Assembly: GCA_028280065.1 (NCBI GenBank)
Contig: JANQMN010000139.1
Span: 124,001-188,000, forward strand
Direction: 5' to 3'
DNA length: 64,000 nucleotides
Source: Hahella sp.
GTDB lineage: Bacteria > Pseudomonadota > Gammaproteobacteria > Pseudomonadales > Oleiphilaceae
The notes below the pieces were generated by a model, which saw only the letters and a list, made by a program, of their open reading frames with translations, was not told the origin of the DNA and made no database searches. Shown here piece by piece: positions 12,223-23,683 of the stretch. Position numbers and translations under genes: made by a program. Positions within the stretch are counted from its first letter, which is position 1. Each line of letters starts with the position of its first letter.

Positions 12223-13626
12223 ATGGCAGACAAAAAAAGCCCGAAAGATCTATCTCGAATTAAAACCGGCAGCTTCGAGCGACGTCTGAGCTTGACCCGG
12301 GCGGGTTTGGTGGCCGGAACGCGCTTGGCCGGTAATATGGCGGCGTCTATTTTCTCTTCGAAAGAGAAGCGTGCGGAGAAACGCCGCGATACTCTCTCTA
12401 AGCAAGCCCATTATTTAGTGGAAGAACTGAGTAACCTCAAAGGCAGCGTCGTCAAGATCGGCCAGGTCATGGCGCTCTACGGCGAACATTTTCTGCCGGT
12501 TGAAGTTACCCAAGCCTTGCATACCCTGGAGAACAAAACCACGGCCTTGGATTGGCCGGTCATTCGTGAAGTGTTGATTCGGGAACTCGGACAATCGAAG
12601 CTACAGGAACTGGAAATCGAACCGCATCCAATCGGGGCCGCGTCGTTAGGCCAGGTGCATCGTGCGGTACGCAAGGCGGATGGCCAACAATTGTGCATGA
12701 AAGTGCAATACCCTGGTGTTGCCGATGCGATCGACAGCGATATCGATTCAGTTGCCATGATTTTAAAAATGGCGCGGATGGTTTCTCTGGGCAAGGATTT
12801 TGACGAGTGGCTGGATGAAGTGCGGGTCATGATGCACCGCGAGGTAAATTATCGGCTGGAACTTGAAACCACCCGCCGCTTTGGAGAAATGCTGGCAGAC
12901 GATGAGCGATTTGTCGTTCCGGAAGTATTTCCGGAGTACTCGACCGGGCATGTTATCACGACATCTTATGAAGAAGGCTTGAGTCTTGCCGACCCTGCCG
13001 TCGCGGCACTCTCGCTGGACAGACGTAATCATCTGGCTCAGGCCGCATTGGAACTATTTCTTAAGGAGATATTTGTTTGGGGTGAATTGCAGACAGATCC
13101 CAACTTCGGCAATTACCTTATTCAGCTTTCAGACCAGCCAAACCAAGGCGATAAAGTGGTATTGCTGGATTTTGGTGCTGTGCAAAAATATCCGCGAGAG
13201 TTTATCGGGCCGGTTTGCGAGATGATCAAGGCCTCTTATGAAAAGGATTTGACTCGGGTGATCGATGGTGCGATGGAATTGAAGTTCATGCGTAAAGAAT
13301 GGCCGGATCCGGTGTTGAATGAGTTCGGCCAGGTGTGCATGGCTGTGTTGGAGCCATTAGAACGCGACCATGCCCATGTGCCGGAAAATGCATTGAATGC
13401 CAGAGGTCAATATTGCTGGAAGAAGAGTGATTTACCCAGCCGAATTGCCAAGCGGGCCGCCCGGTCGGCATTTAACCGCTATTTTCAGATTCCGCCGAAG
13501 GAGTTTGTTTTTCTCAATCGAAAACTGGTCGGCGTTTATACCTTTATATCGGTGTTGGATGCAGAGTTTAATGGTAGGGACGTTCTGGCAAAGTATCTTT
13601 ATCCCATAACAGAAATCGGAAACTGA
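12223..13626 (+). CDS. ABC1/UbiB (AarF) family atypical kinase-like protein
   Basis: Member of the ABC1/ADCK/UbiB family of atypical protein-kinase-like ATPases, linked in most organisms to coenzyme Q or lipid homeostasis. The family hallmark KxGQ is visible in LKGSVVKIGQVMALYGEHFLP (residues about 70-90). The A-rich loop AASLGQVHRAVRKADGQQLCMKVQYPG and the metal-binding LLDFGAVQ (DFG) follow. No C-terminal membrane helices typical of UbiB are obvious in the 467 residues, so this is probably a soluble paralogue rather than UbiB itself. It is only 7 bp after lipA; the substrate is unknown. Confidence 0.85.
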   Translation: MADKKSPKDLSRIKTGSFERRLSLTRAGLVAGTRLAGNMAASIFSSKEKRAEKRRDTLSKQAHYLVEELSNLKGSVVKIGQVMALYGEHFLPVEVTQALHTLENKTTALDWPVIREVLIRELGQSKLQELEIEPHPIGAASLGQVHRAVRKADGQQLCMKVQYPGVADAIDSDIDSVAMILKMARMVSLGKDFDEWLDEVRVMMHREVNYRLELETTRRFGEMLADDERFVVPEVFPEYSTGHVITTSYEEGLSLADPAVAALSLDRRNHLAQAALELFLKEIFVWGELQTDPNFGNYLIQLSDQPNQGDKVVLLDFGAVQKYPREFIGPVCEMIKASYEKDLTRVIDGAMELKFMRKEWPDPVLNEFGQVCMAVLEPLERDHAHVPENALNARGQYCWKKSDLPSRIAKRAARSAFNRYFQIPPKEFVFLNRKLVGVYTFISVLDAEFNGRDVLAKYLYPITEIGN

Positions 13627-13640
13627 ACGAGGAAATACCG

Positions 13641-13820
13641 ATGAAAAAGTTTCTCATGATAATACCGCTGTCAGTCTTGCTCGGATTGATGGGTTGCGCG
13701 CCGGAAGTGGGCAGCAAAGACTGGTGCGAAGACATGCAGGAAAAACCGAAAGGCGATTGGTCGGCAAATGAAGCGGCGGATTACGCGAAACATTGCTTAT
13801 TCGGCGGCAATGACGAATAA
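13641..13820 (+). CDS. small DUF3012 lipoprotein
   Basis: Encodes 59 residues starting at ATG 13641, 14 bp after the kinase gene and with GAGGAAAT upstream. A signal sequence (MKKFLMIIPLSVLLGLMG) is followed directly by a lipobox cysteine (LMGC at about 16-19). The mature part contains APEVGSKDWCEDMQEKPKGDW and a SANEAADYAKHCLF segment with two further cysteines. This is the whole DUF3012 pattern found in many marine gammaproteobacteria. It is presumably a small periplasm-facing lipoprotein with one disulfide; its function is unknown. Confidence 0.88.
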   Translation: MKKFLMIIPLSVLLGLMGCAPEVGSKDWCEDMQEKPKGDWSANEAADYAKHCLFGGNDE

Positions 13821-13850
13821 GGGATCGCCATGGGTGATTACGCACAGCTT

Positions 13851-13868
13851 TGTGAGATAAATCGCACA
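13851..13868 (+). promoter_or_regulatory. GacA-type upstream activating sequence, copy 1
   Basis: TGTGAGATAAATCGCACA is an imperfect palindrome with arms TGTGAGA and TCGCACA around 4 bp. It has the TGT-x-x-G-N6-C-x-x-ACA architecture of the GacA/UvrY box (consensus TGTAAG-N6-CTTACA). It lies 61 bp upstream of the TACTAT -10 hexamer at 13912-13917, placing its centre about 63 bp before the predicted RNA start. That is where response-regulator boxes of rsm/csr RNA genes usually sit. Confidence 0.75.
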
Positions 13869-13923
13869 AGATTTTCAGAGATATAGCCTACCCCGCAAAA
13901 CTGGCACTCGCTACTATACACAC

Positions 13924-14119
13924 ACTGGCCTAGCGGCAAGGACGGAGAAAGGAAACCTAATCCGGCAGGGAAGCCGGCTGCGAAGGCCAGACTTAACAAA
14001 GGATGTTAAGTACGTATCAGGAAGATACTGACAGGGAAGAAAGGGACAGCACAGTTGCCCAGGAAGTGGCGAGGATTAAAAGAATCGGGCATTGCAAGGA
14101 AGCGATGCCCGTCTTTTTT
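13924..14119 (+). ncRNA. CsrB/RsmZ-type CsrA-sequestering small RNA, copy 1
   Basis: A predicted transcript of about 196 nt contains eleven GGA triplets, many as AGGA or AGGGA. Several are displayed in perfect hairpin loops: CCGGC-AGGGAA-GCCGG (13962-13977), CTTAAC-AAAGGAT-GTTAAG (13992-14010) and GTATC-AGGAA-GATAC (14014-14028). GGA in loops is the binding signal for CsrA/RsmA, so the RNA should titrate that translational repressor. There is no plausible open reading frame. It has a GacA-type box and -10 element upstream and an intrinsic terminator at the end. The start is inferred from the -10 position and may be off by a few bases. Confidence 0.85.
14086..14119 (+). terminator. intrinsic terminator of small RNA copy 1
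   Basis: Stem CGGGCAT (14086-14092) pairs with ATGCCCG (14105-14111) and is followed by TCTTTTTT. The loop carries AAGGAAG, adding a further CsrA-type site, as in known CsrB-family terminators. Confidence 0.9.
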
Positions 14120-14320
14120 AGCGGCGTCAACCACTTTTAACCAACGATATGATATTCAGAAACATAGCGCCACTTGTTGTTTTCAGAATTGGGGTGCACT
14201 TCTATCATCACCGCCTGGAATCTGAAAAATATTCTCAGCATTATCGATCTTCATCAGCTCGATATGTTCGTAACCTTCTGAATATTTATCTGAAAAATAA
14301 AATGGCGTTACGAAGCTTTT

Positions 14321-14989
14321 TCACCGTGGCCGATAACTGAGCACACGCCCACCGTCCGTTATTGACTCCAAAGCCAACCATTGTCGATCTTGGGTTGAGT
14401 ACCAAAGTTTGATGGGCTCGTTTTCGCCCTTTAGTTCATAAACGTTGCTGTCGATTTGTGTGCCGTTTACCTCAAAAAGTTCATTGCCGAGAAATTCTAC
14501 GGAGACCTGCTCATACTTTCCTGTTTGTGAGTTTAAGAGTCGCTCTTGCTTTAGAAAATCGTGGTTCCAGTAAGCAAATGTCATCACGCAGCCAGAAAGT
14601 TGCGACTCTGCTTGGTGCGTATTTACGATAAATTTTTCGTCCTGCCGGCTGCCGCGTACAATTAATTTATCGCCGTTATCGTCGGTTGTTGCGTCGATGC
14701 TCGACAGGCAGTTGCCGTTCCAGGATTCCGTGTTGTCGTGGCGGTACTCGTAGACAGTCACGAAGAGCAGCTTGACGTTAAAATCTGCCTGCGTAGACAT
14801 TTGCAGTTGGTCGCCGTTTTGTTTGACATAAAAGTTGTGGAATCCGATTTCACTATCATCCAGATACACCTTGAACTGCCATTCCTTCGTTTCTGCCATG
14901 GCGCTGAAAGCGGTCATGCTGCACAGCGCTGCTGTCAGCCAACTGCTGGATTTTTTTAACCTTCGGCATAATTCACCGGAAATCTTCAT
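14321..14989 (-). CDS. DUF6134-like secreted protein
   Basis: Encodes 222 residues from the ATG at 14987-14989. A signal peptide ends near residue 32 (AFSAMA). The exported part is beta-rich with ETKEWQFKVYLDDSEIGFHNFYV at its start. The frame extends further upstream, but that part lies inside the DUF1295 gene in another frame. The chosen start overlaps that gene's stop (ATGA), a typical coupled arrangement. Proteins of this type (DUF6134) are commonly encoded beside DUF1295 methyltransferase-like proteins; the function is unknown. The family assignment rests on resemblance and context. Confidence 0.75.
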   Translation of the reverse strand: MKISGELCRRLKKSSSWLTAALCSMTAFSAMAETKEWQFKVYLDDSEIGFHNFYVKQNGDQLQMSTQADFNVKLLFVTVYEYRHDNTESWNGNCLSSIDATTDDNGDKLIVRGSRQDEKFIVNTHQAESQLSGCVMTFAYWNHDFLKQERLLNSQTGKYEQVSVEFLGNELFEVNGTQIDSNVYELKGENEPIKLWYSTQDRQWLALESITDGGRVLSYRPR

Positions 14990-15783
14990 TTCATTGTCCC
15001 GGCTAACGGTTTGTTTTTCGGAGGCCCAGGGAAAAATACATTGGTTCTGGCGACGTACTCTGCGTAACCCGGTCGTCTTTTGCCGATGTCTTTTTCTAGA
15101 AGTGAAACGCCTGAAACCTTCAGGAGTAAAACGGTCATTACGACTGGTCCGGGTAATGTCCACCAGGCACCAGCACTTATTGCGAATAAGTAAAATCCCC
15201 ACCACACGCAGAAATCACCGAAGTAGTTGGGATGGCGAGTGTATTTCCACAAACCCCGATCCATTACCTTGTTTTTGTTTTCAGGATTGGCTTTGAAGCG
15301 GGCTAGTTGATAGTCGCCAATAGTTTCGAATGCGATTCCTGTTGCGCAAAGGATCAAACCGACGTAATCCAGAATCGAAAGTTGCATAGCGCCTGTTAAG
15401 GCTCCCAATAGGGTCAGGCTGACCAGCCAGGCCAAAACCGCTTGAAAAAGGAAAATGATAAACAGGCTTTTCACTGCGAAATTAGGCGTATTTCTAGCGC
15501 GGATTTCCTGATAGCGAAAATCTTCCTGTTTTCCCCAATTGCGCCATGTTATGTAACCGGATAGCCGTAGTGCCCAGCCAAGGGTCAAAACTATAACTAT
15601 CGATGTGCGGGTTGTCGGTTCGTCAACCAGCAAAAACGTATTGGCTGCGACGACGACAAAAAATATTGGCCAGAAAGCGTCAACAATGCTGACATCTCGC
15701 TTCACCAGGCTGACAAACCATAGGAGCAAGGCAGTTAGGCATAGCCAACCCAGGTTGGTTGCAGCAATATATAAAAGGTTCAT
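14986..15783 (-). CDS. DUF1295 membrane protein (steroid reductase / isoprenylcysteine methyltransferase-like)
   Basis: A 265-residue integral membrane protein with about seven hydrophobic helices. The C-terminal half holds the superfamily signature RGLWKYTRHPNYFGDFCVWWGF, then a conserved SLLEKDIGKRRPGYAEYV stretch. These mark DUF1295, related to steroid 5-alpha-reductases and ICMT methyltransferases, so a lipid-modifying enzyme using NADPH or S-adenosylmethionine is plausible but unproven. It overlaps the downstream DUF6134 gene by 4 bp. The pair lies between two CsrA-sponge RNA genes transcribed toward and away from it. Confidence 0.85.
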   Translation of the reverse strand: MNLLYIAATNLGWLCLTALLLWFVSLVKRDVSIVDAFWPIFFVVVAANTFLLVDEPTTRTSIVIVLTLGWALRLSGYITWRNWGKQEDFRYQEIRARNTPNFAVKSLFIIFLFQAVLAWLVSLTLLGALTGAMQLSILDYVGLILCATGIAFETIGDYQLARFKANPENKNKVMDRGLWKYTRHPNYFGDFCVWWGFYLFAISAGAWWTLPGPVVMTVLLLKVSGVSLLEKDIGKRRPGYAEYVARTNVFFPGPPKNKPLAGTMK

Positions 15784-16080
15784 CTGTATGTGCTCCCGTT
15801 AATGAAGCTCGCAATTAGCATAAAATTGTTTCTTTAATCGGTGATACGTAATGGTTCGTTATCAAGGGCAATTCACTACAGTTGCCAGGGCATAATATGG
15901 TCGATCCAATTGGTGCCCGAACCTGGCTGCGTTAAGGTCAAACTTTTTACCCTTCTTGAGAGTGTGCCTGTCTTGTTGTGAACCAGGCGTCAAGAAGGTG
16001 TGAAAGAACTGTGAAGATGTTTGTTTTGAGCGAATATTTGCTCTCTGCAAGACGCCCGTATCGTCGAAGGTTCTGTCATT
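15784..16080. other. promoter region upstream of DUF1295 gene and of small RNA copy 2
   Basis: There is no gene here. A near-perfect palindrome (GAGCGAATATTTGCTC, 16028-16043) lies 38 bp before the second GacA-type box. A GGCAA / TTGCC inverted repeat is also seen near 15868-15887. The roles of both are unknown. Confidence 0.4.
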
Positions 16081-16098
16081 TGTGCGATATCTCGCACA
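16081..16098 (+). promoter_or_regulatory. GacA-type upstream activating sequence, copy 2
   Basis: TGTGCGATATCTCGCACA has perfect 7-bp arms (TGTGCGA / TCGCACA). It is nearly identical to the copy at 13851 and also lies exactly 61 bp before its -10 hexamer (TATTAT at 16142-16147). The 12 bases after the box (AAGA.TTTCAGAGATAT) are shared between the two copies as well. Confidence 0.8.
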
Positions 16099-16153
16099 AG
16101 AGTTTCAGAGATATCGCCTATTTTTTCCTGTTGGGGAAGTCTATTATGAACAC

Positions 16154-16350
16154 ACTGATCAGGGCGGCAAGGATGCAGTCAGGAAGACAAAACCGGCAGG
16201 GATAGAAACGGAAGCCTTATCAGCTCGGCAGGATGTCGGAAGAGATTCAGGAAGAGTCGCCAGGGAAGAACCAGGGATGCACTGTTTGCCGTAGGAATTG
16301 GCAAAGGAAGCGCTTATGCGGAGGCACTGTAAGGATACAGTGCCTTTTTT
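16154..16350 (+). ncRNA. CsrB/RsmZ-type CsrA-sequestering small RNA, copy 2
   Basis: A predicted transcript of about 197 nt holds thirteen GGA triplets (AGGA, AGGGA, CGGA), spaced regularly from beginning to end, and no credible reading frame. Its first bases (ACTGATCAGGGCGGCAAGGA) resemble those of the first copy, and the promoter architecture is the same, so the two genes appear to be duplicates that diverged internally. The expected role is antagonism of CsrA/RsmA under GacS/GacA control. The start is deduced from the -10 element. Confidence 0.85.
16322..16350 (+). terminator. intrinsic terminator of small RNA copy 2
   Basis: Stem AGGCACTGTA (16322-16331) pairs perfectly with TACAGTGCCT (16336-16345) around the tetraloop AGGA, and is followed by a run of six T. 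Again a GGA sits in the terminator loop. The convergent membrane-protein gene ends 35 bp further on. Confidence 0.93.
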
Positions 16351-16384: not shown

Positions 16385-17161
16385 CTATGCGCTGAAGTCA
16401 ACAAACACCATTCCGATGCTTAGCCAAACACCGAATGTAAAATAGCTGGTGATCCATACAACTTCATTTTTCCAAATGTGCCAATCATGCGTGGGAATGC
16501 GCCGGCGCAATGCATCTCTTATCCCGTCCGTGACCGAAAGGTAGGCGTGGCCCTGATTTTGATTTTCCTGCGTTCGGGAAAGATACATTGGAATATCCAC
16601 TGCCAACATGATGTAGCCACTGCCGACACAACTGACCACGCCGACGGCCATTAGCAGTTGTATTGCACCTGTCAGCTCGAATGCACCAACCAAAAAACAC
16701 CCCCCGGCAAGAGACACCATCACAACCCAGGCTGCTTCTTCCATTCCATGCCAGAAGTGGTTCAGGGTAAGTGTCGCATACCAGCAAAACGCTTGTGCCA
16801 ACACAATAATAGGGACCACCGAATAGGCAATGGTTGTTATCACCGGCGACTCAAGTAGCGTACCGAGCTCAAACAGGATTAAGGCACATTGGATGCTAAA
16901 ACAAATCTCCGCAATGGTTGCACAGCTTCTGCCAAGGACCACCGACGAAAAGGGCGTATCATGCAGACAATAACGCTCAAGATCAATTCTGGGATAGAAG
17001 GATCGAAACGCACAGACCAGAACGTAAATGCCGGAAAGTAGCAAGTGAGCTATGGAAACGTTCTGCATATCGGAATGCACCCACGTTGCGCCGAGCCATA
17101 TGCCGATATTGATTAGCGCGGTGATACAGAGAAACTTCCACCACAAAATGGTCTTATTCAT
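16385..17161 (-). CDS. unrecognised multi-pass membrane protein
   Basis: I do not recognise this 258-residue protein. It has about seven hydrophobic segments (approximate residues 8-26, 35-52, 75-100, 105-125, 140-165, 170-190, 235-255). Loops are short, with one longer cytoplasmic-looking stretch rich in Gln, Arg and His before the last helix (RTQENQNQGHAYL through PTHDWHIWKNEV). The start ATG gives MNKTILWWKF, a plausible membrane N-terminus. It reads convergently toward the second GGA-rich RNA and divergently from the autotransporter gene. Confidence 0.7.
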   Translation of the reverse strand: MNKTILWWKFLCITALINIGIWLGATWVHSDMQNVSIAHLLLSGIYVLVCAFRSFYPRIDLERYCLHDTPFSSVVLGRSCATIAEICFSIQCALILFELGTLLESPVITTIAYSVVPIIVLAQAFCWYATLTLNHFWHGMEEAAWVVMVSLAGGCFLVGAFELTGAIQLLMAVGVVSCVGSGYIMLAVDIPMYLSRTQENQNQGHAYLSVTDGIRDALRRRIPTHDWHIWKNEVVWITSYFTFGVWLSIGMVFVDFSA

Positions 17162-17533: not shown

Positions 17534-19438
17534 ATGATGGCCCGTAAGTACTTGATGGCAAGATCCTTGTTCCTCAGTTCTTCTGTGTTTACCAGGCTCG
17601 CCTGGCTTTTACTTGGCGTATTTTGCTCCGCCTGTTTCGCCGCCGGGCCCGAAAATATCCGTGCTGTTGTGATTGCTAATGATGTTACTTCCTCTTTGCC
17701 CGCTGTTTATCTCAGCTGGTCGGTCGCCGAACCAACTGACGCAGACGTTCAGGTAATTGTTGAAAAAAGCCTGCAAGAGAGCGGTACGTTCGAAACGATA
17801 GGCGCCACCTTGCTCACTAATCAGCGATTTATCGACAGCAGTGTCGAGCCCGGAATTTCCTATGCATACCGGTTATCCACTGTGGATGGGAATACGTCCG
17901 CCGTCGTGACAGTGGCAATCCCTTTACCCGATGAGCAAATTAACAAGCCTAATCCGCCGGATCAGGTGGCTGCCGTGCCGCAAGTGGAGCCTTTTGGTGT
18001 GGGGGTGCGCTGGACATCCAGTGGCAGCGAAATCGCCGAGTATATCGTCCTGAGAAGAACTTCCAATGATGATTTCTTTTCTTCCATCGGCGTCGTTTCG
18101 GGTGCTGAAAACTTTTTTCTGGACCGCAATCTTACCCCTGATACCAGCTATGCCTATCGCATCATTGCCGTCAACGGAGATGGAATCGCCTCGGATCCGA
18201 GTGACACGGGGACGCTTTCAATCGAGCAGATACAGCTCTTCCTTTCCGCGCAACGCAATAGTCCTGAGGAAGCACTTAATAAACTTTGTTTGTCCGGAGA
18301 TGAACTTTCTGACGAGGCCGAACAGCAATGTCAGAATTTGCTCCTTGCCGACCAAGCTGCCAGAGACAGAGTCCTCAATCAGGCCAGATCCCGGCAGTTG
18401 AAGGGAATGGCCAATACAGTCGTCGGAACTTTAGGCGTGCAGCTAAAAAATGTCGCGGCTAGGCTGAAGAGCCTGCGGCATCGGCATACCAGATTGGATT
18501 TGGGGCGTTTCCGGACCCAGGTTGAAGAGTATCAAATTCCGTTGGGGCGAGTACTGCAATCATTCGTTGACTTGCATTCCGCGGCCAATGACGAAGCGAA
18601 ACCAGGTTTTGGCGTTTTTGTTTCCGGACAGGTTGAGTTCGGCACCAAGGACGACACCGTCGATGAGCAAGGTTACGATGTTGAGACCCAAGGTATCACC
18701 ATGGGACTGGATATGAACGTCGGCGCCGATCTGGTGCTTGGCTCGGCGATTGGCTTTGCTACCGGTGAAGTGGATTATGACGACTCAGGTTCGGCATTGG
18801 ACACCGACTCGTTGACACTGTCGGTTTTTGGCAATTACTACCCGGTTGATTCGCTCTATATTGACCTGATTTTAAGTGCTGGCGATAACAGCTTTGATTC
18901 CGAGCGTGCAATTGTTGAAGCTGGATTCGAAGGCACGAATCAATCTGAAACGGATGGCCGGCAGTATGGCACCGCGATGAGCATGGGGTGGGAAAGCTCA
19001 GCGGCAGCTTGGTCATTTGCAGTCACCGGAAGAGCGGAATGGATGAAAACTATCGTGGATGCCTACGTTGAGCAAGGTTCGGTATTTGCCCTGAGTGTTG
19101 AAGAGCAGGAATATACCTCGTTAAAAACCAATCTCGGCGGCCGCCTATCCTATGCATTTAGTAGCGAAGTGGGAGTAATCTTACCTACGCTAACGATGGA
19201 TTGGGAGCATCAGTACAGCGACGACGCCGAAGAAGTGCAAGCCAGATTCAATCAACTGGACGAAGCCGAGTTCGCTATCGCCACCGATACTCCCGATAGG
19301 GATCACTTTAATGTAGGCTTTTCCTTGGCAGCCACTTTTACCCACGGGTGGATGGCATTCGCTTCCTATCACACCCAGTTAGGGCAAGACGATTTGCGAA
19401 CCGATAGCTTTCAACTCGGTTTACGATATGAGTTTTAA
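17534..19438 (+). CDS. autotransporter with fibronectin-III-like passenger domains
   Basis: A 634-residue protein with a long signal peptide ending near residue 37 (CSACFAAG). Two successive beta-sandwich repeats follow, at about 41-130 and 140-232. Both have the fibronectin type III look: LSW...V.. RS near the start and TSYAYRIIAVNGDGIAS / ISYAYRLSTVDGN near the end. A helical linker (235-330) leads to a C-terminal barrel of about 285 residues. That barrel has alternating strands ending in LGLRYEF, the terminal aromatic needed for outer-membrane insertion. This is a type Va-style autotransporter domain with an unusually small globular passenger. The ligand is unknown; adhesion is an inference. 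Confidence 0.78.
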   Translation: MMARKYLMARSLFLSSSVFTRLAWLLLGVFCSACFAAGPENIRAVVIANDVTSSLPAVYLSWSVAEPTDADVQVIVEKSLQESGTFETIGATLLTNQRFIDSSVEPGISYAYRLSTVDGNTSAVVTVAIPLPDEQINKPNPPDQVAAVPQVEPFGVGVRWTSSGSEIAEYIVLRRTSNDDFFSSIGVVSGAENFFLDRNLTPDTSYAYRIIAVNGDGIASDPSDTGTLSIEQIQLFLSAQRNSPEEALNKLCLSGDELSDEAEQQCQNLLLADQAARDRVLNQARSRQLKGMANTVVGTLGVQLKNVAARLKSLRHRHTRLDLGRFRTQVEEYQIPLGRVLQSFVDLHSAANDEAKPGFGVFVSGQVEFGTKDDTVDEQGYDVETQGITMGLDMNVGADLVLGSAIGFATGEVDYDDSGSALDTDSLTLSVFGNYYPVDSLYIDLILSAGDNSFDSERAIVEAGFEGTNQSETDGRQYGTAMSMGWESSAAAWSFAVTGRAEWMKTIVDAYVEQGSVFALSVEEQEYTSLKTNLGGRLSYAFSSEVGVILPTLTMDWEHQYSDDAEEVQARFNQLDEAEFAIATDTPDRDHFNVGFSLAATFTHGWMAFASYHTQLGQDDLRTDSFQLGLRYEF

Positions 19439-19466: not shown

Positions 19467-22136
19467 TTACGCTGAACTGATGAATTGCTTTAATTCGGGA
19501 ATACAGGAACCGCAATTTGTACCCGCCTGCAAGTGATTGCCGATGGCATCAATAGACTTCAAACACTTTTCTTTTATCGCCTGGCGGATGGTATTTTCGC
19601 CAACGCTGAAACAGGCGCATACTGTTTTACCGGTGTTTTGTCCGCCCGCTAAAGGAATGCCTGCCAGTAGGTCGCGTCGATTTGAATCAGTCAGTTCGCC
19701 GGCATCGAACAGCTCACGAACCCAGGAACGGTCGGGTAATTGATGGTCCGGTCCAAGGAAATAGACAGCTTCGAGCATTCCTCGCTCGGAAAAAACGGCG
19801 CCCCGAAAAACTTGTCGGGTACAGTCTTGATATTCAAGCCACTCGCCGGTCTTACCTTCCATCTGGCGGCATTGTTGCTTAAACCATGGTGGAAAGTTCT
19901 GCACTGCATCCTTCCCGGCAATTTCATAATGGAAGTAGGACCTTCCTTGAATTTTTACCCAATAAGATTCGGCTTCTATCGCCAAAGGCTTTCGACTAAC
20001 GACAAACCCATGCCATTGGTAGTTGGCCGGGCGGATCGAAACTGGGGTATGTTTGCTCTCTGGCTGCCCTGAAACAGGATCGGTAATGGCATTCACCACA
20101 CTGCCGATGTTGCCTTTGGCGGCAAATTGCCTATTCCAATGCATGGGGATGAACAGGTTGCCGCGTTGTTGCTGTTCAGTGATCTGTAACCGCACGATCA
20201 GGGTCCCATAGCGGCTCGCTATTTCCACCAGTTGTCTGTCTTCAAGCTTGAGGTCGGCGGCATCCTGCGGATGCATTTCGCAGAAGGGTTCGGTGATGTG
20301 CTGGTTCAATTGCGGTGCCAGGGCGGTTCTGGTCATCGTATGCCACTGATCCCGAACGCGTCCTGTATTCAATATAAAAGGGAACTGCGAGCAGGTCGCT
20401 GCTTGGGGTTTTTGGGCGGATATCGGAATAAAGTTAGCCCTGCCGGAGGGCGTATAGAATTGCTCGTTTTGGAACATTCGCTTACAGCCCTTAGGGTATT
20501 TTTGATTCACCGGCCACTGGACCGGTTCAAGTGCTTCGTACTCTGATTGGGAAAGGGATTGCAGCGCTGAAATATTGAAATCCCTTCGCTTGCCCTTAGA
20601 GTGATTTTCGAAACCGGATAGTTTCGCATGTTCGGAAAAAATATCATGCGGCGAGTGGAAATCGAAAGCTTGACCAAACCCCAGTTTTCCAGCCACGTCA
20701 CAGATAATTTGCCAGTCATGCCTGGCTTCGGCCGGCGCAGAAAGAAACTTTCGCTGGCGTGAAATACGGCGTTCGGAGTTGGTGACCGTGCCGTCTTTCT
20801 CCCCCCAGCCTGTCGTCGGCAGGAGAATATCTGCAAGAGCCGTTGTGTCAGTATTTCGGACACAGTCCGAGACGATCACATTTTCACAGTTCTTTAAAGC
20901 GGCAACTACCTTATTGGCGTTGGGCAGGCTGACTGCCGGGTTGGTGCCCATAATCCAAATGGCTTTGATTTTCCCCTCAGCCACTGCTTCAAAAAGCGGG
21001 ATAGCCTTGAGGCCTGGTTGGTTGGCAATTCTCGGCGAATCCCAAAACCGTTGCACTCTGTCGATGTCTTCCGGTGCAAAATCCATATGGGCCGCCAATT
21101 GGTTCGCCAGACCGCCGACTTCACGCCCGCCCATGGCGTTTGGTTGGCCGGTCAGCGAAAATGGCCCCTGGCCAATCTTGCCAATTCGTCCTGTCGCCAG
21201 GTGACAGTTGATGATCGCATTGACTTTGTCGGTGCCGCTACTGGATTGATTGATGCCCTGTGAATAGACGGTGACCGTCTTTTCAGTTGCGGCAAACAAC
21301 GCATAAAATGCCGCAATTTCCCCGGCCTGGAGGTTGCAGTTAGTTGCCACCGACTGAATGTCCGGTGCCGATTTTCTTGCTGCATGCAAGGCGACTTCGA
21401 ACCCTTGGGTGTTCTGTTGGACAAAAGCCTTATCGAGCGCATTGGATTTGCTTAGATAATCGAGAAGCCCGTTAAATAGAAAGCCGTCTGTACCCGACGC
21501 GAGTTTCAAATGCATGTCTGCAATGTCGCAGGTGGCGGTCGCTCGCGGATCTATCACCACCACCAAGAGATCCGGCCGTTTTTGTTTGGCCGCCTTGATT
21601 CGTTGATAGACCACCGGGTGGCACCAAGCGGTATTTGAACCGGTGAGAATAATCAGATCGGCCTGCTCCAAATCCTCGTAGCAGCCGGGAACCGTGTCTG
21701 AGCCAAAGGCGCGTTTATGTCCGGCAACGGAAGACGACATGCACAATCTGGAGTTGGTGTCGATATTGGCGGAACCAATAAACCCTTTCATGAGTTTATT
21801 GGCGACGTAGTAGTCTTCCGTGAGCAGTTGCCCCGAAACATAAAAGGCGACGGAATCAGGGCCATGTTCTGCGATGATACTCTGCAACCGCCCCGCCACT
21901 TCTGTGATTGCCTGATTCCATTCCACCCGGCGGCCATTGACTTCAGGGTGGAGCAGCCGGTCTTGAAGTCCAACGGTATCGCCGAGTGCTGTGCCTTTGG
22001 AACATAACCTTCCCAAATTTGCCGGATGACTCTCCGTACCCATAAGCGTGATTGATCGTGTCCCGGCATTTATGACATCAATATCAATGCCGCAGCCAAC
22101 ACCGCAATAGGCGCAGGTGGTGTTAACGCTCTTCAT
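19467..22136 (-). CDS. nasA: assimilatory nitrate reductase catalytic subunit
   Basis: Cytoplasmic molybdopterin-dependent enzyme that reduces nitrate to nitrite for nitrogen assimilation. The N-terminal [4Fe-4S] motif CAYCGVGC is at residues 8-15, with the fourth cysteine in RLCSKG. The bis-MGD domains include SSSVAGHKRAFGSDTVPGCYEDLEQADLIILTGSN and GTNPAVSLPNA. A C-terminal BFD-type [2Fe-2S] domain (CACFSVGENTIRQ ... GTNCGSCIPEL) is the electron entry point, as in Klebsiella NasA. The frame is open another 32 codons upstream, but the ATG at 22136 fits the family and overlaps the preceding stop (ATGA). Length is 889 aa. Confidence 0.95.
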   Translation of the reverse strand: MKSVNTTCAYCGVGCGIDIDVINAGTRSITLMGTESHPANLGRLCSKGTALGDTVGLQDRLLHPEVNGRRVEWNQAITEVAGRLQSIIAEHGPDSVAFYVSGQLLTEDYYVANKLMKGFIGSANIDTNSRLCMSSSVAGHKRAFGSDTVPGCYEDLEQADLIILTGSNTAWCHPVVYQRIKAAKQKRPDLLVVVIDPRATATCDIADMHLKLASGTDGFLFNGLLDYLSKSNALDKAFVQQNTQGFEVALHAARKSAPDIQSVATNCNLQAGEIAAFYALFAATEKTVTVYSQGINQSSSGTDKVNAIINCHLATGRIGKIGQGPFSLTGQPNAMGGREVGGLANQLAAHMDFAPEDIDRVQRFWDSPRIANQPGLKAIPLFEAVAEGKIKAIWIMGTNPAVSLPNANKVVAALKNCENVIVSDCVRNTDTTALADILLPTTGWGEKDGTVTNSERRISRQRKFLSAPAEARHDWQIICDVAGKLGFGQAFDFHSPHDIFSEHAKLSGFENHSKGKRRDFNISALQSLSQSEYEALEPVQWPVNQKYPKGCKRMFQNEQFYTPSGRANFIPISAQKPQAATCSQFPFILNTGRVRDQWHTMTRTALAPQLNQHITEPFCEMHPQDAADLKLEDRQLVEIASRYGTLIVRLQITEQQQRGNLFIPMHWNRQFAAKGNIGSVVNAITDPVSGQPESKHTPVSIRPANYQWHGFVVSRKPLAIEAESYWVKIQGRSYFHYEIAGKDAVQNFPPWFKQQCRQMEGKTGEWLEYQDCTRQVFRGAVFSERGMLEAVYFLGPDHQLPDRSWVRELFDAGELTDSNRRDLLAGIPLAGGQNTGKTVCACFSVGENTIRQAIKEKCLKSIDAIGNHLQAGTNCGSCIPELKQFISSA

Positions 22137-23683
22137 ATGACTTTGTGACACTCCCGATATCTCTCCTGGCCATGCAGCGCCGATTCCTGGGATTCCAGAT
22201 AGTAATCGATCGCGGGTCGGCAGATTCGGCAACCCTCTTGCTCCTTAAAGTCAAGAATCCGAAATAGTTGGTGCGGGCTGCGTGGTCGGTATTGCCGGAT
22301 TGCCGACTGTATCGATTGGTGGCTCAGCGCAGTGCATCGGCAGACCGCTAATTCATCCGGCAATTGTTTGTTGAGCAGAGCTTGCAGTTGGTTGTGCGGT
22401 TTCTGGCTTTTAGCGGCGTTGGCGGTAATGTCCAGCGTTGCTGTCGCATTATGATCGGCATTCGCTTTACCGAACAGCAATGTATTGCGGAAGGTAGTTA
22501 TATCTGTTTTGTCCTGCATAAGTTGGAAGTACCAAGGTCCGTCCTTGGTGTCTCCATATAACAGGATCCCCGCTATCCGATGATTTCTTATCGTCAGCTT
22601 CTTGTATACATCACGGTCCGGATCTTCAAATACTAGAGTTTCCGATTGCTCATCCCCCAAAAAGTCACCTGCGGAAAACAGGTCGATACCGGTCACTTTT
22701 AGTTTCGTGGAAACGGCCTTCGTTTGGTACCGATGATTGCCAAATTGGGCAAGGTGGTTTGCGCAGACTTTTGCCTGACCCCAGAGTGGGGCCACCATGC
22801 CGAACAGCTCGCCGCGATGCTGAATACATTCGCCGACAGCATAAATGCTTGGGTCATAAGTCTGTAACGTGTCGCTAACCACAATGCCCTGTTGGCAGTG
22901 CAGTCCCGCTTGCTCGGCGAGCTGGATATTCGGTTGGATACCCGCCGCCATCACAACCAGATCTGCCGGCAGTTCGACACCGTTATCTAACTGCAACGCT
23001 TGGACAACGCCGTTGTCATCACCGCATAGTGCAGAGGCCCTGGCCGACATGCAAAACCCTATTCCTCGTGATTCCATCGCTTTTTTTAGGTTGGATGAAG
23101 CGGCTTGGTCCAACTGCCGGTTCATTAATACATCCGAGTTGTGAACCACGGTTACCTGCATTCCTCTGGCGGCCAAACCATTTGCTGCTTCCAAACCCAA
23201 TAAACCTCCGCCAATAACGACGGCGTTGCTTTTGGATTTGGCTGCCGAAAGCATTGCTTCGACATCCCTGATGTCCCGAAAAGTGATGACGCCCTTTAAC
23301 TCTTTCCCGGGCAAGGGGATGATGAAAGGCCTAGAGCCTGTGGCGATAAGTAAACGGTCGTAGGAAGCGGAAGTGCCGTCCTGGCTAAAAACTTTTCGGT
23401 GTTTACGGTCGATTTTGACTATGCGTTTTTGTCTGCCGCTCCACAGCTTTATGCCTTGGTTCTCATACCAGGAAAGGTCATTTAATATGATGTCGTCAAT
23501 GCTCTTTTCTCCGGCGAGAACGGGTGAGAGCATGATCCGGTTGTAATTTCCATGGGGTTCGTCGCCAAACACCGTGATCTCATAAAGTTCAGGCGCTACT
23601 TTAAGAAGCTCTTCGACAGTGCGAATACCGGCCATACCGTTGCCAATGACAACAAGCTGTTTTTTCACAAGTTCCTTTCCCAA
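22133..23683 (-). CDS. FAD-dependent NAD(P)H reductase subunit of assimilatory nitrate reductase
   Basis: Supplies electrons from NAD(P)H to the nitrate reductase encoded next to it (NasC-type in Klebsiella naming; equivalent to the N-terminal half of NirB). The FAD-binding motif VVIGNGMAGIRTVEELL is at the N-terminus. The second Rossmann motif VVIGGGLLGLEAANGLAARG is near residue 155, and the FAD-contact ATG motif is in LLIATGSRPF. The C-terminal region carries CRCTA ... GCRICRP, a BFD-type cluster motif. At 516 aa it lacks the siroheme domain of nitrite reductase. The gene overlaps nasA by 4 bp, so the two are co-translated. No nitrite reductase or nitrate transporter is in the operon here. 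Confidence 0.88.
   Translation of the reverse strand: MGKELVKKQLVVIGNGMAGIRTVEELLKVAPELYEITVFGDEPHGNYNRIMLSPVLAGEKSIDDIILNDLSWYENQGIKLWSGRQKRIVKIDRKHRKVFSQDGTSASYDRLLIATGSRPFIIPLPGKELKGVITFRDIRDVEAMLSAAKSKSNAVVIGGGLLGLEAANGLAARGMQVTVVHNSDVLMNRQLDQAASSNLKKAMESRGIGFCMSARASALCGDDNGVVQALQLDNGVELPADLVVMAAGIQPNIQLAEQAGLHCQQGIVVSDTLQTYDPSIYAVGECIQHRGELFGMVAPLWGQAKVCANHLAQFGNHRYQTKAVSTKLKVTGIDLFSAGDFLGDEQSETLVFEDPDRDVYKKLTIRNHRIAGILLYGDTKDGPWYFQLMQDKTDITTFRNTLLFGKANADHNATATLDITANAAKSQKPHNQLQALLNKQLPDELAVCRCTALSHQSIQSAIRQYRPRSPHQLFRILDFKEQEGCRICRPAIDYYLESQESALHGQERYRECHKVI

Follow-up and report, generated by a model that had tools for sequence, protein, structure and literature searches.

The 64 kb of DNA from a marine Hahella analysed here (the window; positions 124001–188000 of contig C151 in genome G000) carry two genes, R1 and R2, for RNAs that, judged by their sequences, are most likely sponges of the Csr/Rsm type titrating CsrA. 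Both lie on the forward strand, 2,230 bp apart, as a preliminary description of this DNA had proposed; palindrome, AGGA density and terminator confirm the two genes. It is highly probable that R1 and R2 are paralogous, GacA-driven sponges which arose by duplication of a unit reaching from the activator box to the terminator, and which now share about 5.8 kb of DNA with an unrelated operon of two DUF genes. For comparison we used G000 and six other Hahella genomes (G001–G006), among 58 genomes searched in all, our own included.

Each gene has an 18-bp palindrome of the GacA/UvrY type, TGTGAGATAAATCGCACA at 13851–13868 (R1) and TGTGCGATATCTCGCACA at 16081–16098 (R2), both on the forward strand and found by palindrome scans. 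Counted by strand, the box-like palindromes at 13850–13869 and 16080–16099 account for four matches in the window; the number to be expected from shuffles is 0.03. The -10 hexamer, TACTAT (13912–13917) in R1 and TATTAT (16142–16147) in R2, begins 61 nt after the start of the 18-mer in both genes, the distance given in the preliminary description. A second, degenerate box lies in between, at 13873–13892 in R1 (best register +24) and at 16103–16120 in R2 (22 bp past the first box, scored against shuffles). The common stretch reported behind the box, TTTCAGAGATAT, is part of this second copy. It is exact in both genes (13873–13884 and 16103–16114), starts 22 bp after the first box and has no further match in the window with up to one mismatch (0.21 expected). 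Transcription would start about 7 nt after the -10 hexamer, which gives predicted RNAs from ~13924 to 14119 and from ~16154 to 16350, both on the forward strand. Both finish in a hairpin plus T-run, an intrinsic terminator, located by sequence reading and folding in R1 (14086–14119, loop AAGGAA) and by folding and covariation of the stem in R2 (16323–16350, loop AAGGAT). The 3' domain of R2 is common with RNAs of relatives.

No other 195-nt segment on either strand of the 64 kb is as dense in AGGA/AGGGA as R1 and R2. Each has ten of these motifs, and the next best segment has five. Dinucleotide shuffles contain 3.3 on average and reached ten in none of 2000 cases for R1 and in one of 2000 for R2. 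In R1 the hairpins ACUUAACA-AAGGA-UGUUAAGU and GUAUC-AGGAA-GAUAC present GGA in the loop. The R2 hairpin GCC-GUAGGAAU-UGGC and the terminator loop AAGGAU match the same pattern, and the loop placement is clearer in R1 than in R2. R1 folds with a z-score of -5.5. The terminator stem was compared over 19 sequences, R2 included: 10 of 13 pairs vary on both sides, and four of five covariation measures lie above all 500 shuffles; the measure of further pair types does not (172/500). With a Rho-independent terminator, no evident coding sequence, many GGA/AGGA motifs (several of them in hairpin loops) and a predicted GacA/UvrY palindrome upstream of the promoter, R1 and R2 have the features of Csr/Rsm small RNA genes. 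The genome also encodes the partner proteins. There is a single csrA (C71:31201–31356), as there is one CsrA in each of the seven Hahella, and a single match exceeds the cut-off of the GacA/UvrY equivalog (C151:41135–41776, 304.7 bits versus 280), on the same contig as the window. The palindromes have the layout of the UvrY consensus TGTAAGN6CTTACA as given in the available part of PMC4682653. No paper on the Rsm RNAs of Hahella appears, by title, among the open-licence PMC matches listed.

To place the two genes in their family, 23 short Rsm genes, R1 and R2 included, were aligned, and 31 genes (orthologues among them) were cut out for measurement. In seven of the 31 the box start was placed from a model match rather than from a strict box, and one sequence (G2_wgB) is mis-cut in the promoter measurements, the body comparison and the tree. 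Of the 31 genes, which come from Hahella and a related genus and include R1 and R2, 28 have a TANNNT hexamer beginning 61 nt after the start of the box; in two genes the distance is 62 nt, and the last is the mis-cut one. In 24/31 genes the second site scores best at an offset of 22 bp from the first box (at 22 in R2, at 24 in R1). About 0.3% of pooled shuffled spacers score as high as this site does in R1 and R2, and none scores as high as it does in four genes of the related genus; in 19 of 21 other Hahella genes it is indistinct from shuffles at 5%. The promoter module, box and spacing together, is a trait of the family and therefore no argument by itself for a duplication of R1 and R2. The shared module had been taken as a sign of duplication; with the same geometry in 28/31 genes we rejected it as proof.

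The argument for sister copies comes instead from the units as a whole. Alignment of the two regions yields ungapped repeats of 42 nt (88% identity) and 39 nt (79%) at a spacing of 2,230/2,231 bp, confined to the unit. From box to terminator the similarity scores 68 (z = 21.5), and none was found in the 150 nt upstream or the 150 nt downstream. The best match of the R1 body is R2 (z = 11.3; next 4.8). The 39-nt stretch belongs to a long 5' part that none of the other 21 RNAs in the alignment shares; two further long genes, on G003 C1 and G006 C64, are outside this alignment, and R1 compared with the one on G003 C1 gives z = 2.2. A DNA search with R1 matched four of the 58 genomes, our own included, and outside R1 and R2 the matches covered box or promoter stretches only. 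In a tree of promoter plus RNA, built from 25 of the 31 sequences after prior removal of four near-duplicates and of two long genes that aligned poorly, R1 and R2 form a clade with support 96/93. We consider it probable that the two genes are sister copies of a single promoter-plus-RNA unit. The claim of a local duplication is therefore likely to hold for the RNAs, with their same-strand orientation and homology bounded by one unit. For the DUF genes between them it is wrong: a duplication around these genes is unsupported because the RNA unit alone is repeated and the DUF pair occurs elsewhere without box or GGA cluster. We accordingly discarded the idea that the duplicated unit included the DUF genes.

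Upstream of R1, after lipB-lipA, lies a gene which we take to encode an ABC1/UbiB-like kinase (12223–13626, forward strand). It forms a conserved left flank, with 73–76% identical orthologues in all six other Hahella. A gene for a small DUF3012 protein follows (13641–13820, forward; PF11216, 74.2 bits) and ends 30 bp before the R1 box. Between R1 and R2 are the two DUF genes that the RNAs had been said to flank, both on the reverse strand and confirmed by Pfam: a DUF6134 gene read towards R1 (14321–14989; PF19630, 164.9 bits) and a DUF1295 gene for a membrane protein (14986–15783; PF06966, 240.6 bits, and PF02544, 31.1 bits). A reverse-strand gene for a 258-aa protein, with no Pfam match at E 0.01, converges on R2 (16385–17161). 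It is followed by a gene for an autotransporter beta-domain protein with fn3 (17534–19438, forward; PF03797, 167.6 bits) and, as right flank, by what is presumably a nasA-like reductase gene (19467–22232, reverse), a 60% identical relative of which lies near the kinase gene in G003 and G006.

Besides our own, 41 of the 58 genomes contain a match to the kinase, and the locus was fetched from 36 of these. None of the 36 loci has a box at a score of at least 0.88, four of them being ended by contig ends, and seven have a GGA-dense segment and no box. Among 80 named kinase loci, from genomes that partly overlap with these, we found one weak box-like site. In G003 and G006 about 1.2 kb and 0.8 kb, respectively, with one or two small genes and no box, separate the kinase gene from the nasA-like gene; the corresponding gap in the window is 5,841 bp. 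In G015, from another genus, a nasA-like gene (56%) stands about 4.1 kb from the kinase gene, also without a box, and the other four Hahella have no nasA-like match within the fetched stretches. The R1/R2 pair thus appears to lie in a lineage-specific stretch not seen in relatives, since the flanks in G003 and G006 are 0.8–1.2 kb apart with no RNA detected. In other Hahella the matches of the DUF1295 gene reach just 29–33%, but there is one of 56% in G044. DUF6134 was found in 20 other genomes out of 293 searched, with DUF1295 within the 1.5-kb flanks at 10 of the 20 loci; none of the 20 has a box (score 0.85) or a GGA cluster. By this distribution the DUF1295-DUF6134 pair is a separate, independent operon.

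Close tandem sponges had been called uncommon. A sequence-only Rsm model, based on 23 genes from nine of the searched genomes and used at E ≤ 0.01 with strict filters, matches 28 of the 58 genomes (own included); many matches beyond Hahella and the related genus are weak. Full-length short Rsm genes number 2 in G000, 7 in G001, 6 in G002, 4 in G003, 7 in G004, 7 in G005 and 4 in G006, which are lower bounds because of the strict filters; five more matches in G000 are promoter-only and one more in G006 is partial. In G001, G002, G004 and G005, four of the six other Hahella, every full-length short Rsm gene found sits in a head-to-tail cluster; in G003 and G006 the short genes are on separate contigs. 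One type of cluster is a pair about 310–317 bp apart behind a gene that looks to us like a NarX-type sensor kinase. Another is a pair or triple at about 235–250 bp next to a WG-repeat gene (L281, L138, L145, L166), namely a triple in G001, G004 and G005 and a pair in G002. The WG-repeat identity comes from Pfam on the G002 copy, and the downstream Rsm copies of G001 have degenerate boxes. In a third type the pair is about 3.26 kb apart; in G002 (L277 5268–8719) it surrounds genes for a VIT/VWA protein and a sortase. We rejected orthology of this pair with R1/R2, as the enclosed genes differ; an autotransporter-domain gene near it is 28% identical to the one in the window. The related genus contains near-identical direct copies (220/222 in G024, 225/226 in G012). 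For this genus the claim of rarity fails because pairs and triples occur in four of the six other Hahella and because tandem rsmX is already published in Pseudomonas, as the accessible part of PMC7911923 describes.

Apart from the short genes, G002, G004, G005, G006 and related genomes have another Rsm-like class, whose box precedes the GGA-rich part by about 190 nt. A third Rsm-like candidate of G000 (C43:40778) also has its box about 190 nt upstream; in locus L156 the box is at 1779–1796 and the GGA-rich part at ~1365–1600 on the reverse strand. A further Rsm-like class is present in the related genus (L131 1208, L132 6643, L134 1448, L135 1284), in three of the four loci 3.6–5.1 kb from a short Rsm gene.

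The more surprising lead is a wider box regulon. The strict palindrome has 25 forward and 26 reverse matches in G000, corresponding to 28 distinct sites, and the reversed palindrome, used as a control, has no match in this genome. The other Hahella have 5–6 strict palindromes each. Setting aside C43:40778, C151:137851 (R1) and C151:140081 (R2) leaves 25 boxes without an Rsm RNA (examples are L025 1502, L016 1502 and L346 1470). Two of the 25 lie inside predicted open reading frames of at least 100 codons. Within 200 nt on either side they have at most 4 AGGA/AGGGA motifs, against 10 in R1 and R2. A TANNNT hexamer at 61 or 62 nt accompanies 15 of the 25 boxes (16 hits counting directions); in 500 shuffles these distances gave 2.7 on average and 7 at most, and the best adjacent pair of distances anywhere gave at most 11. 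For 13 of these 15 boxes a predicted gene starts 40–227 nt downstream on the same strand. TseH-like effectors of the type VI secretion system are found beside boxes on C106 (by Pfam) and C139 (alike by eye), and one box with a -10 at 61/62 precedes such an effector gene. Further products beside boxes are VgrG (C60), a Tle1-like phospholipase (C78), DUF945, an HHH protein, DUF5675 and an Rce1-like protease; four scanned proteins belong to no family. The vgrG box on C60 and the second box on C78 (Tle1-like) have no -10 at 61/62. By ChIP-on-chip, the direct targets of GacA are the sponge genes only, as cited in the available text of PMC4682653; in P. aeruginosa, ChIP-seq gave many promoters according to the available text of PMC6610081. 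The boxes with a -10 hexamer suggest an unusually wide direct GacA regulon in G000. We tentatively propose, with somewhat less than even confidence, that the GacA-type promoter (palindrome, -10 at 61–62 nt and in some cases a second site about 22 bp on) has spread to at least a dozen protein genes, TseH-like effectors included, so that GacA would activate secretion directly and also release it from CsrA through the R1/R2 sponges, in a feed-forward manner. If true, this would be a coherent feed-forward loop on a scale without equal in the sister species. The fixed -10 geometry makes a direct GacA regulon testable in this genome, which has about five times the number of boxes of its sisters.

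Several results weigh against R1 and R2 as duplicated sponges of the GacA circuit. Plain GGA is in modest excess in R1 (11 versus 7.1 expected, with 54/2000 shuffles as high); R2 has 13, a number reached in 3/2000 shuffles. The folding of R2 (z = -2.0) is barely above shuffles, 8 of 200 being equally stable. An Rfam scan of both RNAs gave nothing at the gathering score, and we made no family assignment from the nearest families, PrrB_RsmZ (RF00166) for R1 with 22.7 bits against a cut-off of 44 and CsrB (RF00018) for R2 with 20.1 bits against 71. Nor did Rfam reach the gathering score at any of eight loci that contain other Rsm genes; five of them have weak matches below it, and the long RNA of our own genome points to PrrB_RsmZ at E 0.7. 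Our reading of the two RNAs as sponges thus draws on anatomy and context (csrA, GacA/UvrY and palindrome) rather than on a family model. The likeness of the two bodies is also unequal. R2 best matches an RNA of G003 beside a WG-repeat gene (z = 19.3), and R1 is tenth (11.0), behind the RNAs of nine relatives. The tree of RNA bodies alone gives the R1/R2 pair 66/74, with R1 on a long branch. A single-copy state was not seen in relatives: it had been held that a relative lacking one RNA, or with the two at unrelated loci, would speak against local duplication, and neither occurred; none of the 36 relatives showed an RNA at the corresponding position, and so there is no single-copy intermediate. 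These three points would suit two old Rsm paralogues joined by chance or insertion. We regard such an origin as unlikely, given that nothing else matches R1 nearly as well as R2 does, that the 39-nt 5' stretch is unique to the two among the 23 aligned genes, that both share a strand and that tandem copying is recurrent in the family.

That the RNAs and the DUF1295-DUF6134 pair form one functional cassette, with the RNAs regulating the genes they enclose, is suggested by the exact flanking of these two genes and by the two RNAs around two genes in other Hahella, there for the VIT/VWA protein and the sortase. Such a cassette is most improbable: the enclosed genes differ from case to case, the 20 other DUF6134 loci combine ten with DUF1295 and none with a box or GGA cluster, and in the search for GGA sites near the DUF starts the 60 nt upstream of either start proved to have no AGGA, just one GGGA-type stretch each. 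It is also quite improbable that the palindromes serve another LuxR/FixJ-family regulator and leave R1 and R2 outside the GacA circuit. Partially similar regulators exist, another NarL/FixJ-type protein could use the palindrome, and Rsm RNA is missing at 25 of the 28 strict boxes of G000 and at 11 of 27 boxes listed in five other Hahella (any unexamined box being put among the 11). On the other side stand the 16 of these 27 boxes that precede Rsm-like RNAs, the shared layout with the UvrY consensus and the GacA/UvrY equivalog of the genome.

Based on these results we favor two duplicated, GacA-driven sponges and propose the following mechanism, in which transcription, the binding of GacA and CsrA and the order of events are what we infer from the DNA. 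Phosphorylated GacA would bind the 18-bp palindrome, and perhaps also the weaker site that follows after about 22 bp, and activate a sigma-70 promoter whose -10 is fixed 61 nt from the box. Each transcript of about 195 nt would then offer about ten AGGA motifs, several of them in hairpin loops, stop at its own terminator and titrate the single CsrA. The pair would have formed by copying of the box-to-terminator unit, with the unrelated DUF operon now between the copies in the stretch of about 5.8 kb from the UbiB-like kinase gene to the nasA-like gene. More generally, a family of sponge RNAs, probably GacA-driven and below every Rfam cut-off, multiplies head-to-tail while csrA stays single in Hahella. 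The 2 to 7 short copies found per genome are a natural series for asking why the number of sponge genes changes.

Among known systems, the Pseudomonas PrrB/RsmZ RNAs (RF00166) have GGA hairpins and a terminator like R1, although the score of R1 is below gathering. The genomic place of R1 and R2 is different from the one known for rsmZ. E. coli CsrB/CsrC (RF00018) are, like R1 and R2, sponges with multiple GGA motifs, an 18-bp UvrY palindrome and an intrinsic terminator, as the available part of PMC4682653 describes; there the csrB box is far upstream (crosslinking from -222 to -142), whereas the box of R1 and R2 is 61 nt from the -10. Tandem sibling small RNAs in general are already known, as the portion of PMC4211561 at hand indicates. 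Nearest in arrangement are rsmX-1 and rsmX-2 of P. brassicacearum NFM421, P. fluorescens F113 and P. stutzeri, which the available part of PMC7911923 describes as tandem GGA-rich Rsm RNAs of 75–81% identity, with a GacA box ahead of each tandem copy in NFM421 as in R1 and R2. The Pseudomonas copies are about 110 nt long and about 210–240 bp apart from start to start (PMC7911923, same part). R1 and R2, in contrast, are about 195 nt long, lie at a distance of 2,230 bp from each other on either side of a two-gene operon, and reach no Rfam cut-off. The R1/R2 pair is a further case of a known kind of arrangement, and such pairs recur in its relatives.

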